Assembly (NCBI GenBank): GCA_903887045.1
Contig: CAISOD010000243.1
Location: 1 to 33,180, forward strand
DNA length: 33,180 nt
Direction: 5' to 3'
From: an uncultured Gammaproteobacteria bacterium
Lineage (GTDB): Bacteria; Pseudomonadota; Gammaproteobacteria; Pseudomonadales; Pseudohongiellaceae
Below the pieces are notes generated by a model, which saw only the letters and a program-made list of their open reading frames with translations, was not told where the DNA came from and ran no database searches. The stretch's first letter is position 1, and each line of letters starts with the position of its first letter. Positions 13,632 to 19,823 of this stretch are shown here, piece by piece. The position numbers and the translations under genes are program-made.

Positions 13632-14495
13632 TTACTGCTTGTCCTTGGCTTCTTTCGACTCTTTCGAATCCTTCGAGTCTTTCGACTCTTTCGACTCTTT
13701 CGATTCTTCCAGTTCGGCGGCTATGCTCAGCAGACGTTTGCCGGCTTCAATCGATACGTCTTGCGGAATTTCCAGTGACCCTAGCCACTGCGCCTTGTCG
13801 TCCTCGTCCTTGCCGTTCGACAGTGCGCTCATACCGGTGGTGGTATGCAGGCAGCGGATGCGCTTGAATTTTTCAGGATCAGCGACAGTTTCATCTTTCA
13901 GCACGATGCTGCATTCGTACAGCACCCAGGTACCTTCGACTGACTGCCAGAAAAAGTCGGTGCCGTTACGGCTGGCCTTGAGCTCGGAATCGGCTTTTTC
14001 CTTCTCGGTGGTCAGATCCTTCAGTTCCTTGCGGCTCTTGACCAACGCATTGTTGAGGGCCAGGTTGTCGGCGGCCTGCTGCTGGGTCTTTTTCTTCAGG
14101 TCGGCGACCTGGCGTTTCAGGCGCTCGGGATCGAGCTGCTTGAGCTCTTTCAACTCATCAAGGGCGACTTTGAGTTCGTCGCGCGTCTTTTTGAGCTGGT
14201 TGTTGAGAACGTTGTCTTTCTTGTCGCCATCAATCAGCTGCTCGAGCTTTTCCAGCTGGATCTGCTGCCGCAGCGCTTCGAACTCTGCTTCAACGCCGGC
14301 AAAGTGATCAAACTGCCGCTCAAGATGCTCGAAATCTTTCTTGTGCTCGAGCAAATCCTCACGCAGCTTGATTTCAACCTGCTTGGATCGCTCCAACTGC
14401 TCAAGCAGCTGGATGCGCTCCTCTTCGAGTTTGGAGACTTCGGCTTTCAGGACACTGCTGGTGCGGAGTTCTTTCAGGCTTAAAACTTGGGCCAT
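13632..14495 (-). CDS. Coiled-coil protein of unknown family with charged tandem-repeat C-terminus
   Basis: Long heptad-like region, a short globular segment (FFWQSVEGTWVLYECSIVL), and the tail ESKESKESKDSKDSKESKEAKDKQ. Confidence 0.8.
   Translation of the reverse strand: MAQVLSLKELRTSSVLKAEVSKLEEERIQLLEQLERSKQVEIKLREDLLEHKKDFEHLERQFDHFAGVEAEFEALRQQIQLEKLEQLIDGDKKDNVLNNQLKKTRDELKVALDELKELKQLDPERLKRQVADLKKKTQQQAADNLALNNALVKSRKELKDLTTEKEKADSELKASRNGTDFFWQSVEGTWVLYECSIVLKDETVADPEKFKRIRCLHTTTGMSALSNGKDEDDKAQWLGSLEIPQDVSIEAGKRLLSIAAELEESKESKESKDSKDSKESKEAKDKQ
13650..13710. repeat. 9-nt imperfect tandem repeat encoding (E/D)SK units
   Basis: Consecutive ttcttt/cttcga-type 9-mers (e.g. gactctttc repeated) read as ESK/DSK in the minus-strand CDS. 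Confidence 0.85.
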
Positions 14496-14659: not shown

Positions 14660-15304
14660 TTATTTCTCCATTTCGGCGATTTTGTCCTTCATTTGGGCGA
14701 TCAGACCGTCGATGCCGTCCTTGGTAAAAATCGAACGGTAGGTGTCACGGTACGAGCTCACCATGCTGACGTTCTCGACTTCAACATCGTAGATGAACCA
14801 GCCGTCATTGCGTTTGCGCAGCTTGTAATTGACCGGGATGTTGCCGGTGCCGGAGAGGATTACCGAGTCAACGCTCGCGCGGTTCTCGTTCACTTCCTCC
14901 TTGCGGAACTCGACGACTTCATTGGTGTAAACCTTGATGCGACCTATATAGGTACTTTCAATGGTCTGCAGCAGCAGGCCCTTGAACTCTTGCTGCTGGG
15001 CAGGAGAGATGTTCTTCCAGTTGGTCGACAGCACGCTCTGCGCCATGGCGACGTCGTCAAAAGCCCGGCGGATTTCGGCACTGATGGCGGCGCGGTCGTT
15101 CTCGAGGTTGTAGTCGGGTTTGCGCAGTACGGCCAGGATGTTTTCGACCACGGTTTTCACTGCAGCAGTAGGGGTGCCCTGGGCATGGACAGCGGGTACT
15201 GTCAGCAACAGGGGCAGCAGCAGGCCGGTGGCCAACAGCAGACGCCTGCTCAGGCCGGTACTGCGGGCAAGGCGGGAGATAGTACGAGTGACGTTAGTAG
15301 GCAT
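14660..15304 (-). CDS. mlaC: MlaC-like phospholipid-binding periplasmic protein
   Basis: Signal peptide then VVENILAVLRKP, AIMAxx-like ARRAFDDVAMAQSVLSTNWKNISPAQQQEFKGLLLQTIESTYIGRIKVY, and WFIYDVEVENVSMVSSYRDTYRSIFTKDGIDGLIAQM. ATG at 15304 preferred. Confidence 0.92.
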   Translation of the reverse strand: MPTNVTRTISRLARSTGLSRRLLLATGLLLPLLLTVPAVHAQGTPTAAVKTVVENILAVLRKPDYNLENDRAAISAEIRRAFDDVAMAQSVLSTNWKNISPAQQQEFKGLLLQTIESTYIGRIKVYTNEVVEFRKEEVNENRASVDSVILSGTGNIPVNYKLRKRNDGWFIYDVEVENVSMVSSYRDTYRSIFTKDGIDGLIAQMKDKIAEMEK

Positions 15305-15468
15305 GCTGAATCCTCTGTGTTGCCAACCAGACGTGGATCTACTGGTGGTCCCGGATGATTGGCGGCAATTATAACGCCGGACACCGAATGCGGCCTTAAC
15401 GGCGGGGGCTGGGCGGCAAAATGCCAACCAGCTGAAAAAGCACCAGGTGTCTGAACGACTTGCGATCT

Positions 15469-16185
15469 TTACTGGTCGATCTTGCCTTGACGGTTCTGTA
15501 CCCAGGCACTGCGGAAAAACACATAGGGATCGAGGGCGCTCTCATAGAACGCTTCGTAGGTGTCCTGATCGAGCGATAGGTCTACCTCGGCAGCAGCCAG
15601 GTTGATACCGATGATCTCGCCCGTCACCAGATTCTGATAGAAAGGGTTCACGCGGTTGTTGGTGATGCTGCCGGCCATATCGCGCAAGCTGGTAGGGCCG
15701 TACAGAGGCACTACCAGATAAAAGCCGTGGCCGACGCCGTAGCGGGCCAGTGTTTGACCCACGTCTTCCTCATCCTGCAAAAGGCCGAGGTGGGTAGCTG
15801 GATCGAGCAGGCCGCCCAGGCCTGCAGCGGTATTCAGCACGAATCGACTGGCTTCGATGGCAGCATTGCGCGGCTCGCCCTGCAGCAGGGCACAGGCTGC
15901 CGACACTGGTGCCAGCAAGTTGGTGAAGAAATTGGCCATGCCGTTGCGCACGGGTACCGGCAGTACCCGCAGGCCGCGTGCAATGGGTTTCAGCACGCCG
16001 CGGTAGAGTTTGTCGTTGACGGCAAAGCTGGCACGATTTAGGGATTCGAGAGGGTCGGCGATGGCGGGAGCTGCGCTGGCTTCCTCGTCGAATTCAAAAA
16101 ACTCTTCATCTTCCTGCGACTGTGCAGGCAATGCGATCAGCGCGGCAAGCAATGGCAACAACTTGATAAGACCTTGCTTTTCCAT
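15469..16185 (-). CDS. mlaA: MlaA/VacJ family protein, apparently without a lipobox
   Basis: DPLESLNRASFAVNDKLYRGVLKPIARGL, NGMANFFTNLLAPVSAACALLQGEP, RFVLNTAAGLGGLLDPA, GVGHGFYLVVPLYGPTSLRD. Confidence 0.93.
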   Translation of the reverse strand: MEKQGLIKLLPLLAALIALPAQSQEDEEFFEFDEEASAAPAIADPLESLNRASFAVNDKLYRGVLKPIARGLRVLPVPVRNGMANFFTNLLAPVSAACALLQGEPRNAAIEASRFVLNTAAGLGGLLDPATHLGLLQDEEDVGQTLARYGVGHGFYLVVPLYGPTSLRDMAGSITNNRVNPFYQNLVTGEIIGINLAAAEVDLSLDQDTYEAFYESALDPYVFFRSAWVQNRQGKIDQ

Positions 16186-16222
16186 AAGGGGATTCCGGGG
16201 TGGAGAGGGCGTGCCGGCAGTG

Positions 16223-16675
16223 CTACTCGCTGCTGCCGCTGAAAATGTATTTGCTGACCAACTCTTCCAGGCTAACGGCTGATTCGGTTTCAGTGATCTG
16301 CATGCCGTCGGACAAAAGATCCGGAAAGCCGCCAGCAGTCAGCTTGATGTATTTCTCGCCTATGATGCCCTGCGTACGCACGGCAGCTATGGCGTCCTCC
16401 TGCACCGGCACACCTTCATTGATGCGCAAAGTAACAATGGCTTGATAGTTGTCTGGATCAAATTCGATTTTGCTGACGGTGCCGACACGCACGCCGGCCG
16501 CTTCGATGATGCCGCCGGGGCGCAGGCCGGAGATGTTGTCGAAGCGCGCCATCAGCGTATAGCCCGGCTGCTGACGGAAGTTGCCGCCGCCTATAGTCAC
16601 CGCCTGATAGCTGAAGGCGGCAAGGCCCAGCATGACGAAGATGCCGGTGAGCAGTTGCAAGTTGAGTCTTTTCAT
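16223..16675 (-). CDS. mlaD: MlaD, MCE-domain protein
   Basis: N-terminal TM, then YTLMARFDNISGLRPGGIIEAAGVRVGTVSKIEFDPDNYQAIVTLRI and RTQGIIGEKYIKLTAGG. Confidence 0.95.
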   Translation of the reverse strand: MKRLNLQLLTGIFVMLGLAAFSYQAVTIGGGNFRQQPGYTLMARFDNISGLRPGGIIEAAGVRVGTVSKIEFDPDNYQAIVTLRINEGVPVQEDAIAAVRTQGIIGEKYIKLTAGGFPDLLSDGMQITETESAVSLEELVSKYIFSGSSE

Positions 16676-16694
16676 GGGGTTCTCCTTCCAAATC

Positions 16695-17480
16695 CTAAAT
16701 CAGTGCGCCGATCAGAAAATCGCTGAACAGCACTGCAATCGACGACATTACGACAGCATCCGTGGTGACCGAGCTCACACCCTCGGCGCCCTGCGAGCCG
16801 GCCTTGCCGAGATGCATGTAGAAGCCGCGTGCACAACAAATCAGCGTGATCAGCAGGCCGAAAATCACTGATTTGACGAGGCCAAGCCGCACGTCTACCC
16901 ATTCAATGGCGTCGGTCATGCCGTTCATATATGAGCCTTCGGGGAGGCCGAACATGTAGACGCCGACGAAATACCCGCCGAACAGGGCGACGAAATCGAA
17001 CACCATCGTCAACAATGGCACCGACAGCAGGCCTGCAACCAGCTTTGGTGCTATCAGGAATTTGCCGGGCGAGATTGCCATGCATTCGAGTGCATCGACC
17101 TGTTCCGTGATGCGCATGATGCCGAGTTCGGCAGTGATCGACGAACCGGCGCGGCCAACCACCATCAGCGAGGTCATCACCGGCCCGAGTTCGCGGATAA
17201 CGCTGAGCGCCACCCCGGCGCCGAGCAGATCAACCGCACCGAAACGTTCGAGTATGTTGTAGAACTGCAGACCCAGCACCATGCCGATGGTGACACCGGA
17301 CACGATGATCAGCGTCAGTGAGCGTGCGCCGATGAAATACATCTGTCGCACGATTGGGTACAGCCGGTACGGCGGTTGCAACAGTTCCCAGAACACGATC
17401 AACAACAGGTTGAAGGTGCGGCCGGTCTGTTCCAGAGAGCTGATAACAATCGCGCCAATATTTTCAATGGATTTCAACAT
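16695..17480 (-). CDS. mlaE: MlaE family ABC permease
   Basis: GARSLTLIIVSGVTIGMVLGLQFYNIL, ELGPVMTSLMVVGRAGSSITAELGIMRITEQVDALECMAISPGKFLIAPKL. Confidence 0.96.
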   Translation of the reverse strand: MLKSIENIGAIVISSLEQTGRTFNLLLIVFWELLQPPYRLYPIVRQMYFIGARSLTLIIVSGVTIGMVLGLQFYNILERFGAVDLLGAGVALSVIRELGPVMTSLMVVGRAGSSITAELGIMRITEQVDALECMAISPGKFLIAPKLVAGLLSVPLLTMVFDFVALFGGYFVGVYMFGLPEGSYMNGMTDAIEWVDVRLGLVKSVIFGLLITLICCARGFYMHLGKAGSQGAEGVSSVTTDAVVMSSIAVLFSDFLIGALI

Positions 17481-18287
17481 CTATACCCCTCCTGTCAGGC
17501 GGCGCAGGTGGGTGTCGGTGTCCACTATCGTTTCGCGCGGCTTGCGGTTGAGCATGCCCTGGATTTCCGGATTGGTGGACGCAGTGATCTGTTGCGGCGT
17601 GCCGGTTTCGATGATGAGGCCGTTCGACATCACGGCGATATGGTCGGCAATCTTGAAGATACTGTCGAGCTCGTGGGTGACGACGACAATCGTCATGCGC
17701 ATCGTGTTTTTCAGCGTAATGATCAGCTGGTCCAGCTCGGCGGCGGTGCTCGGATCCAGACCGGCGGATGGCTCATCAAAGAACAACAGTTTCGGGTCCA
17801 TGATGATGGCGCGCGCCAGTGCGGCGCGCTTGGTCATGCCGCCCGACAGTTCGGCCGGCATCAGGTGTTCGGCCGGCAGCATGTTGACCATGTCGAGCTT
17901 GATGCGGGTCATGATCTCGATGGTTTTTTCATCGAGATTGGTGTGTTCGCGCAGCGCCAGCTGGATGTTCTCCGCCACCGACATCGACGAGAATAGTGCC
18001 CCGCCCTGGAAGGCGACACCCATCTGTATGCGTACTTTGTTGATTTCACGCAGTGAAGCGCTGGCGATGTCGGTGCCGAGTATGTGCACGCTGCCGCTGG
18101 TCGGTTTTTTGAGGCCGAGCAGGCAGCGCAACAGTGTGGTCTTGCCGGCACCACTCTGGCCCATGATCACCATGATCTGGCCCATCGGGATGTCAAGATT
18201 GACGTCACTCAGGATGCGGCGCTGGCCGTAATCGACCACAAGATTGCGGATCGAAATGGCGTTTCGCTGTGAGTTGTCGGTGGACAT
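17481..18287 (-). CDS. mlaF: MlaF family ABC ATPase
   Basis: Walker A GQSGAGKTTLLRCLLGL, signature AELSGGMTKRAALARAI, Walker B LLFFDEPSAGLDP, H-loop VTHEL. ATG at 18287 (MSTDNSQ). Confidence 0.96.
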   Translation of the reverse strand: MSTDNSQRNAISIRNLVVDYGQRRILSDVNLDIPMGQIMVIMGQSGAGKTTLLRCLLGLKKPTSGSVHILGTDIASASLREINKVRIQMGVAFQGGALFSSMSVAENIQLALREHTNLDEKTIEIMTRIKLDMVNMLPAEHLMPAELSGGMTKRAALARAIIMDPKLLFFDEPSAGLDPSTAAELDQLIITLKNTMRMTIVVVTHELDSIFKIADHIAVMSNGLIIETGTPQQITASTNPEIQGMLNRKPRETIVDTDTHLRRLTGGV

Positions 18288-18291
18288 GCGC

Positions 18292-18645
18292 TTACTGTAT
18301 TGCTCCAGCGTGGGTTGTGACCTGGGCCTTGAACTGCTCGGCACTTGAGTACAGATTGAAAATCTTGTCGAGTCGCGTCAGGGTCAGTACCTGCAGCGCC
18401 GTGGTACTGATGTTCAGCAGTCCATAGGGCAGCTTCGACGATTTGGCGGTCTGAAAGCCTTCAACCAGGGAGGCAATACCCGAGCTGTCGATGTAGCTGA
18501 CCTGCGCCATGTCGATCAACAGCGGCTTGCCGTCCTTCAGGGTGCCGAGAATTTTTTCGCGCAGCTTCGGCGAAAAATGCATGTCGACCTCGCCGCTCAG
18601 TGCAAGCAAGTCGAACCCCGTTTCCGATTTGAGAGTAAGTTCCAT
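18292..18645 (-). CDS. STAS-domain protein (MlaB-like or anti-sigma-antagonist-like)
   Basis: GFDLLALSGEVDMHFSPKLREKI, LLIDMAQVSYIDSSGIASLVEGF. ATG at 18645 (MELTLKSE); 4 nt from the mlaF start. Confidence 0.92.
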   Translation of the reverse strand: MELTLKSETGFDLLALSGEVDMHFSPKLREKILGTLKDGKPLLIDMAQVSYIDSSGIASLVEGFQTAKSSKLPYGLLNISTTALQVLTLTRLDKIFNLYSSAEQFKAQVTTHAGAIQ

Positions 18646-18664
18646 ACCGCCTTCCGCCACTCCG

Positions 18665-18670
18665 ATTATA
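18665..18670 (-). promoter_or_regulatory. Candidate -10 element for an internal promoter upstream of STAS-mlaFEDAC
   Basis: Perfect TATAAT on the minus strand in the 88-nt gap between the kinase and STAS genes. No convincing -35. Confidence 0.3.
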
Positions 18671-18733
18671 AAAAGCCCAACAGCAAAAATCCGTAATTTG
18701 GTGTCCGGTACAACTGCCACCGGGCCCCGTAGA

Positions 18734-19189
18734 TCAGTTCCGACCAAGATGCTTGCGCATCTGCAATACATTGCCGGAGCTGCCGGGGGAGTCCAGCAAC
18801 ACCACTTCGTCCATCACCTGATTGATGATGTGGCAACCCAGCCCGCCCGGACGTATTTCGTCCAGCGGACGCGAGCGCATTTCGCCGGCACAGGATTTGT
18901 GCTTGGCGAAATCGGTTAGCCGGAACACCAGGTGGCATTGGTTGCTGGTGGTGGGTTCATCGCCCGGTACCAGATCCACTTCCAGCACAATGTCGCCCTT
19001 GTCGTTGGGGCCATAGGCATGCTGGATGATGTTCATGCAGGCCTCGCCCACCGCCAGCACCACGTTGTTGAGCACTGCCTCCGACCCACCGCAGTGCTTG
19101 AGTGCTTCGCGCAGTTTCAATCGCACGCTACCCATCTGCTCGGCGCAGGCGGGAAACTGGTAAGCCAGTAAGCGCTGGGTAGCTGTCAT
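18734..19189 (-). CDS. RsbW-like serine-protein kinase / anti-sigma regulatory factor (HATPase_c_2)
   Basis: N-box NNVVLAVGEACMNIIQHAYG, LTDFAKHKSC, G-box GGLGCHIINQVMDEV. ATGA overlap with the upstream phosphatase remnant. Confidence 0.88.
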   Translation of the reverse strand: MTATQRLLAYQFPACAEQMGSVRLKLREALKHCGGSEAVLNNVVLAVGEACMNIIQHAYGPNDKGDIVLEVDLVPGDEPTTSNQCHLVFRLTDFAKHKSCAGEMRSRPLDEIRPGGLGCHIINQVMDEVVLLDSPGSSGNVLQMRKHLGRN

Positions 19190-19823
19190 GGCGCGAGGGA
19201 AACTCCCTGGTCTTCGATTAGCAAGATGGTCAGGTCGTCGAAACTGTAATCCAGTCGCGACGCTTCGTACGCAAACTGCTGGAGCCGCTGCTGTCTGGGC
19301 AAGTGGCTGTATTTGGCGATCAGAGTCTGCACATTTGCCGGTTCGTCCTGTAGGTTCAGTACTCTGGCAAGGCCTTCAGACAGGCCGTCAGTATACAAAT
19401 AGAGGCTGCCCCCTGTCAGTGAGAATGTCACCTCGCCAAACTGTTGCTGCGGCAGGATGCCAAGCGGCAGGCCGGTAGAGGCATATTACGGGCTGCAATA
19501 TTGAGACCCAGGATCGGATGGTGCTCGGCAAACTTGGGCAGGAAGCTTTCCTGCAGGCTGCGGGCGAGATTCAGCTCCTGCTGCAGCGTTTCGGTAACAA
19601 CAAGCTCGCGCGCCATCTTGGCGTTGCGGATTGCCAGTGTGGCGGAAGCCGCCAGAATGCCGAGCAATTGACCGTCCACCTCGTCGAACTGGCCCTCTGG
19701 ATTGTCCAGTGTCGGGATCTTGTTGATCAGTTCGATGGCGCCAAGGCTTTCGCCCTGCACCGACAGCTGCGCGCATAGTATGGAGCGGGTGCTGAAGCTC
19801 GTTTGCGCATCAATGCCAGGCAA
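19186..19823 (-). pseudogene. Decayed RsbU-like GAF-SpoIIE (PP2C) phosphatase: GAF fragment and C-terminal fragment in different frames, catalytic core missing
   Basis: Fragment 1: FSTRSILCAQLSVQGESLGAIELINKIP...ETLQQELNLARSLQESFLPKFAEHHPILGLNIAARNMP. Fragment 2, another frame: TGLPLGILPQQQFGEVTFSLTGGSLYLYTDGLSEG...YSFDDLTILLIE. The segment between AARNMP and GLPLGIL, carrying SGDF and DVSGKG motifs, is absent. Confidence 0.82.

Follow-up and report, generated by a model that had tools for sequence, protein, structure and literature searches.

What does a partner-switching kinase with its STAS protein control when the pair stands at the head of a lipid-transport operon? The question is raised by a stretch of 33,180 nucleotides, referred to here as the window, from an uncultured gammaproteobacterium of the family Pseudohongiellaceae (assembly GCA_903887045.1, contig CAISOD010000243.1), in which genes for an RsbW-like serine kinase and an RsbV-like STAS protein lie upstream of mlaF-mlaE-mlaD-mlaA-mlaC. 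It is proposed that the two proteins probably form a partner-switching module with the lipid ATP-binding cassette (ABC) transporter itself as its output. The proposal draws on observed gene content, conservation, co-inheritance, decay pattern and predicted folds; in the genomes surveyed, most of which are metagenome assemblies, the kinase, the STAS protein and one clade of MlaF are co-inherited even where their genes no longer adjoin.

Organization of the locus

Genes were assigned with Pfam and NCBIfam profiles, and Pfam supports for every gene the minus-strand order that the original prediction, made from the sequence alone, had read here: a phosphatase remnant, the kinase, the STAS protein and mlaF-mlaE-mlaD-mlaA-mlaC. 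The features are as follows (aa, amino acids).

19850-19186, minus strand: remnant of a GAF-PP2C (RsbU-like) phosphatase; Pfam GAF_2 (weak) and SpoIIE fragments
19189-18734, minus strand: RsbW-like serine kinase, 151 aa; Pfam HATPase_c_2, 1e-21
18645-18292, minus strand: RsbV-like STAS protein, 117 aa, proposed MlaB equivalent; Pfam STAS, 4e-15
18287-17481, minus strand: mlaF, MlaF-type ATPase of the kinase-associated clade; Pfam ABC_tran
17480-16695, minus strand: mlaE, permease; Pfam MlaE, 1e-73; TIGR00056 above cut-off
16675-16223, minus strand: mlaD, MCE protein; Pfam MlaD, 1e-21; TIGR04430, 143.4 bits (cut-off 135)
16185-15469, minus strand: mlaA, outer-membrane lipoprotein; Pfam PF04333, 2e-56
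about 15304-14660, minus strand: mlaC, periplasmic lipid carrier; Pfam PF05494, 1e-39
12208-10244, minus strand: dCache-HAMP-PP2C (SpoIIE) phosphatase, 654 aa, candidate substitute; Pfam

The STAS start was set at the ATG at 18645, the start given by the open reading frame (ORF) finder, 18771, being judged too early, as was the listed TTG start of mlaC at 15427. The tight junctions described earlier agree with the coordinates: the kinase starts on the end of the phosphatase fragment (ATGA overlap, 19189-19186), a gap of 4 nucleotides separates the STAS end at 18292 from the mlaF ATG at 18287, and the mlaF stop codon TAG (17481) abuts the mlaE ATG (17480). A dedicated promoter was sought between the kinase and STAS genes, where promoter-like matches did not rise above those in shuffled sequences. 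Since a profile search finds a single MlaE in the window's genome (G000, a draft of 313 contigs, 99.7% complete), this is, as far as visible, the genome's only mla operon; profile searches of the same genome returned no second RsbW-like gene of comparable score.

Kinase, STAS protein and a distinct MlaF clade

The kinase has the HATPase_c_2 fold with the N-box ExxxN and the GGLG lid of RsbW and SpoIIAB. Its N-box residues E49 and N53 and its GGLG are present in the window, and E49, N53, D93 and PGGLG are conserved in 26 diverse homologues. The family profile matches the RsbW structure 6m36 at 2e-20 and the predicted model resembles SpoIIAB and RsbW; the curated RsbW equivalogs reject the protein (NF003144, 58.8 bits, cut-off 145; TIGR01924, 54.8 bits, cut-off 155).

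The STAS protein carries its candidate phosphoacceptor, Ser54 of YIDSSG (codon AGC, 18486-18484), at the N-terminus of helix 2. Its AlphaFold model (predicted local distance difference test score, pLDDT, 93) has a C-terminal helix at residues 101-114 and matches RsbV (6m36_B) best, MlaB more weakly. With the STAS fold, the DSSG motif, this helix and a TIGR00377 score of 60.7 bits (cut-off 53.45), the protein is RsbV/SpoIIAA-like as judged from sequence and model, and it lies outside the MlaB family by the curated equivalog NF033618 (20.7 bits, cut-off 90). It is also the only STAS protein linked with an mlaFED transporter, the position that MlaB holds, and we infer that it works like MlaB though by curated profile it is no member of that family. 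All module STAS proteins carry Y[IM]DSS[GA][IV]A, and the phosphosite residue is Ser in 91 of 91 kinase-linked STAS proteins; in the sample, Thr (DTAG) occurs only in proteins with no linked kinase (the alignment takes in MlaB of E. coli and SpoIIAA of B. subtilis, whose sequences were entered by hand). Ser at this site does not, however, mark out the kinase-linked proteins, as was at first considered, since DSAG is frequent in kinase-free MlaB.

By profile, MlaE, MlaD, MlaA and MlaC belong to the MlaFEDAC system, whereas the ATPase falls short of the curated MlaF equivalog NF008809 (208.9 bits against a cut-off of 441) and belongs to a sister clade of MlaF. The 36 kinase-linked MlaF proteins form one clade (support 100/99) apart from 58 other MlaF, and full-length MlaF scores leave a gap between the clade, at least 400 bits, and all others, at most 291. 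These MlaF proteins were picked through the kinase, which biases the clade test taken alone; the genome-wide count given below is free of that bias. The window's MlaF has a C-terminal extension with HLRRL near its end. The median extension length is 38 aa in the clade and 41 in MlaB-binding MlaF; in systems that lack a separate STAS protein, the MlaF extension is mostly shorter (22-39 aa, median 29.5). In E. coli the corresponding extension contacts MlaB (PMC7367683).

Conservation and co-inheritance

The kinase, STAS and mlaF genes are adjacent in 10 of 10 genus genomes examined (the kinase being degraded in one) and in 3 genomes of the sister genus; other genera of the family are without the module kinase, some having a longer MlaE and others none. 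When the kinase alone was used as query against 84,980 species genomes, MlaE or MlaF stood beside the STAS gene at 69 of the best 80 loci, and 4 of the remaining 11 are cut by contig ends. The kinase-STAS-mlaF arrangement is far beyond chance, and the adjacency that had been put forward for a survey turns out to be strongly conserved in the genus, in the sister genus and widely beyond.

Intact PP2C-kinase-STAS sets beside MlaE or MlaF occur, by record title, in Gamma-, Alpha- and Betaproteobacteria and Terriglobia. The commoner architecture is PP2C-kinase-STAS-mlaE-mlaF-long MCE-auxiliary lipoprotein; that of the window, PP2C-kinase-STAS-mlaF-mlaE-mlaD-(mlaA)-mlaC, is found also at L098 and L148, and at L157 with the PP2C gene at the opposite end. 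The input domains of the PP2C differ among relatives (GAF, HDOD or response-regulator receiver), and PP2C and kinase are fused at several loci. Two loci (L087:8004-14877 and L093:5030-13265) have two mlaE and two MCE genes and a single mlaF behind the kinase-STAS pair; they are possible intermediates between the two architectures, and in them one ATPase may serve two lipid transporters.

A sample of 370 gammaproteobacterial genomes, with STAS and kinase presence called at E below 1e-30, gives the genome-wide count. Kinase and STAS families occur in an identical set of 56 of the 370 genomes (about 15%), spread over 31 families. The MlaF clade occurs in 58, of which 55 share it with the STAS protein and three are without STAS (one of these being cut at a contig start); a STAS protein without a clade MlaF is seen in one genome. 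Fisher's test gives 8e-61 for this co-occurrence, ignoring shared ancestry. A clade MlaF gene is within 2 kilobases (kb) of 46 of the 56 STAS genes and within 3 kb of 4 more.

The genomes in which the genes have separated add weight to the proposal. PP2C-kinase-STAS sets stand apart from mla genes in seven genomes (G712, G469, G410 and those of L122, L124, L132 and L143), each of which has an mlaF-mlaE-mlaD operon with a clade MlaF and without a STAS gene; G410 and the genomes of L132 and L143 also have canonical mla operons with their own MlaB. The simplest reading of these STAS-less operons is that the module STAS protein serves their MlaF in trans. At L122, L124, L132, L143 and L258, the module apart from mla genes often faces conserved genes for an FHA-like protein and a PrpC-like phosphatase.

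At the edges of the distribution, loci of another class (family f55; L159, L160 and L163-L167) have a more distant kinase-STAS pair, with DSSG or DSAG, in the vicinity of a divergent MlaE and a long MCE gene, and the link between kinase-STAS pairs and MCE transporters may be older than Gammaproteobacteria. Weaker kinase homologues at L261-L264 and L266 have PP2C and STAS genes with no mla genes in the fetched stretch; they are likely separate partner-switching systems with other outputs. L086, L132 and L138 are environmental gammaproteobacterial loci whose public records are titled Klebsiella pneumoniae (MAG), titles that look wrong. Two kinase copies on different contigs of G005, a member of the genus (L003/L044 and L017/L032; identity to the window's kinase 71% and about 69%), may reflect a mixed bin rather than a duplication.

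Gene decay and the phosphatases

In one genus genome, G007, deletions and stops have wrecked phosphatase and kinase. Next to mlaF the STAS gene survives undamaged, its motif YIDSSG having become YIDTAG, the form found in E. coli MlaB. If a STAS protein served the kinase only, it should be free to decay, so its survival points to a transporter role; the case is suggestive only.

The window's cognate GAF-PP2C is a dead pseudogene, and the term remnant used for it earlier was apt. Relative to an intact 420-aa relative, the piece at 19850-19482 corresponds to residues 97-219 and that at 19485-19204 to residues 326-419; nothing remains of residues 1-96 or of about 220-325, where the core of the catalytic domain lies, and the pieces stand in different frames. 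The intact SpoIIE/PP2C catalytic domain of an RsbU-type phosphatase is thus found in relatives and not in the window's copy. GAF-PP2C is intact in G010, G006, G003, G002 and G011 and has been lost repeatedly in the genus and sister genus; where intact in these two genera, it overlaps the kinase gene or sits closely upstream of it in several genomes. The kinase ORF remains intact in genomes without this PP2C and is under purifying selection, with ratios of nonsynonymous to synonymous substitution (dN/dS) of 0.11-0.29, the synonymous sites being partly saturated.

About 2.5 kb past mlaC in the window lies the dCache-HAMP-PP2C gene. All 13 genomes with a decay-free kinase that were examined in the genus and sister genus keep it, and it is absent from G007, from 3 sister-genus genomes without MlaE and from 9 other genomes of the family. 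That it arose only after the loss of GAF-PP2C was considered and rejected: it co-occurs with intact and lost GAF-PP2C alike and tracks the kinase instead. Being kept with the live kinase and absent from G007 and the module-less relatives, it is a good, unproven candidate and the likeliest substitute phosphatase in the window's species. Nearer to mlaC, at 13632-14495, a coiled-coil-like protein is encoded, kept between mlaC and cinA in related genomes.

Proposed mechanism and alternative explanations

In E. coli, MlaB docks on MlaF by a helical face with T52 near its centre and the MlaF extension packing in; binding to MlaF is greatly weakened by the T52E substitution, and ATPase activity is lost with T52A (PMC7367683, PMC5016091). 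On the strength of these mutants and of the RsbV/SpoIIAA precedent, the unphosphorylated STAS protein would dock on MlaF as E. coli MlaB does and would be needed for an assembled, active MlaFED. The RsbW-like kinase would phosphorylate Ser54, the first Ser of DSSG; because this residue would be at the centre of the docking face, phosphorylation would release the STAS protein from MlaF and transport would stop. A sensor-domain PP2C, with GAF, HDOD or receiver input in relatives, would remove the phosphate on signal and turn transport on, and in the window's species dCache-HAMP-PP2C may stand in for the dead cognate GAF-PP2C. Binding, phosphorylation, the direction of the switch and the substitute phosphatase are what we infer in this scheme. 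The original idea of an MlaB-like STAS protein as transporter switch is supported: the adjacency, whose loss in relatives had been named as a refutation, is kept, and co-inheritance and the STAS protein outliving the kinase favour the idea too, with the limit that profile and fold place the protein outside the MlaB family.

We also lean, with somewhat less assurance, towards a broader statement: that widespread lipid ABC transporters, of the MlaFED type and the MlaE-MlaF-MCE-lipoprotein type, are gated post-translationally, without transcription, by a kinase and PP2C acting on an exchangeable STAS protein, which can work for two transporters with a common MlaF (as at L087 and L093) and belongs to a module able to act in trans.

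Several findings weigh against a transporter switch. The canonical G1 box DxGxG is not found in the kinase: D93 is invariant but the motif is DFAxHK-like, the first Gly being Ala in most homologues. Many kinase-free canonical MlaB proteins carry Ser at the phosphosite position, so Ser alone is no proof of phosphorylation, and the STAS protein has a C-terminal helix, missing in MlaB, that may not fit against MlaF. G570 and G428 keep a clade MlaF without the module STAS, so the dependence is not absolute, and since the sampled genomes share ancestry the Fisher value treats them as more independent than they are. The motif change in G007 was seen once, in an assembly that is 90% complete, and the window's own phosphatase is dead.

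Information could instead flow in reverse, the transporter being the sensor: MlaF would compete with the kinase for the STAS protein, and the transporter's state would thereby determine how much free kinase is available to a sigma factor or other regulator encoded elsewhere. The kinase and STAS protein do most resemble RsbW and RsbV, whose kinase also binds a sigma factor, and joint inheritance of STAS and MlaF would fit equally. However, the 22 gene families recurring most around 67 relatives, judged by eye and in neighbourhoods only, include neither a sigma-factor family nor another regulator as a regular companion of the module, the varied PP2C sensors suggest that input enters through PP2C with a constant output at STAS-MlaF, and in G007 the STAS gene stays with mlaF after the death of the kinase. 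We therefore consider reverse flow unlikely, although an additional sigma-factor partner may exist elsewhere in these genomes.

That the genes encode ordinary anti-sigma partner switching, merely co-transcribed with the mla genes and with no contact between STAS and MlaF, is quite unlikely. It would suit the RsbV-like sequence and fold of a STAS protein outside the MlaB family, as well as the genomes where the module lies apart from mla genes, but it leaves unexplained the joint presence in 55 of 56 genomes with a single MlaF clade, the STAS-less separated mlaFED operons, the STAS protein outliving the kinase and the MlaF C-terminal extension.

Very unlikely, finally, is a constitutive MlaB-like STAS subunit beside a degenerate or vestigial kinase, at least in the phosphatase-less lineage of the window: several PP2C losses in the genus and sister genus (the window's included), the atypical G1 box and the final loss of the kinase in G007 would fit, but kinase ORFs in PP2C-less genomes are intact with the low dN/dS given above, E49, N53 and GGLG are invariant, and dCache-PP2C is present wherever the kinase survives in the two genera.

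Comparison with known systems

How MlaB and the Mla transporter are regulated is a stated open question, for which phosphorylation has been proposed with no kinase known (PMC5016091; PMC7367683). In about 15% of the sampled gammaproteobacterial genomes, the gene set described here offers candidates for the cognate kinase and phosphatase, and with a matched protein set the question becomes directly testable through binding, phosphorylation and transport. Partner switching, MlaB and the proposed phosphorylation of MlaB are known; a lipid ABC transporter as the output of partner switching would be new, and in the open-access literature we found no report joining partner switching with Mla or MCE systems. 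If the proposal is true, signals read by PP2C sensor domains switch outer-membrane lipid homeostasis on and off in these bacteria, and a new type of output is added to those of partner switching.

E. coli MlaFEDB resembles the module in that MlaF, MlaE and MlaD go with a STAS protein encoded separately, in the MlaF C-terminal extension and in a hydroxyl residue at the T52 position. It differs in gene order, the module STAS gene lying upstream of mlaF and that of E. coli after mlaC, and in the STAS protein itself, which in the module is RsbV-like with an extra C-terminal helix. The module also has a dedicated kinase and phosphatase; for MlaB of E. coli neither enzyme is known (PMC7367683, PMC5016091).

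The RsbU-RsbV-RsbW and SpoIIE-SpoIIAA-SpoIIAB switches of B. subtilis are like the module in their PP2C, GHKL serine kinase and DSSG STAS protein, and in fold the predicted models agree with the RsbV/RsbW complex 6m36 and with SpoIIAA/SpoIIAB. In contrast to them, the module cluster has no visible sigma-factor gene, and its constant, co-inherited partner is an MlaF-type ATPase with MlaE.

HsbR-HsbA and SiaABCD of Pseudomonas are partner switches with a non-sigma or unknown output. Together with SypE-SypA and BtrV they act on biofilm, secretion, FlgM or diguanylate cyclase, and to our knowledge none of these outputs is an ABC transporter subunit. SypE-SypA of Vibrio and BtrV of Bordetella are likewise partner switches whose output is non-sigma or unknown (PMC8256260). 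In all of these Vibrio, Bordetella and Pseudomonas switches an RsbW-like kinase phosphorylates an RsbV-like STAS protein; they share with the module these two kinds of protein, a PP2C and, as proposed for it, a target other than a dedicated sigma factor.

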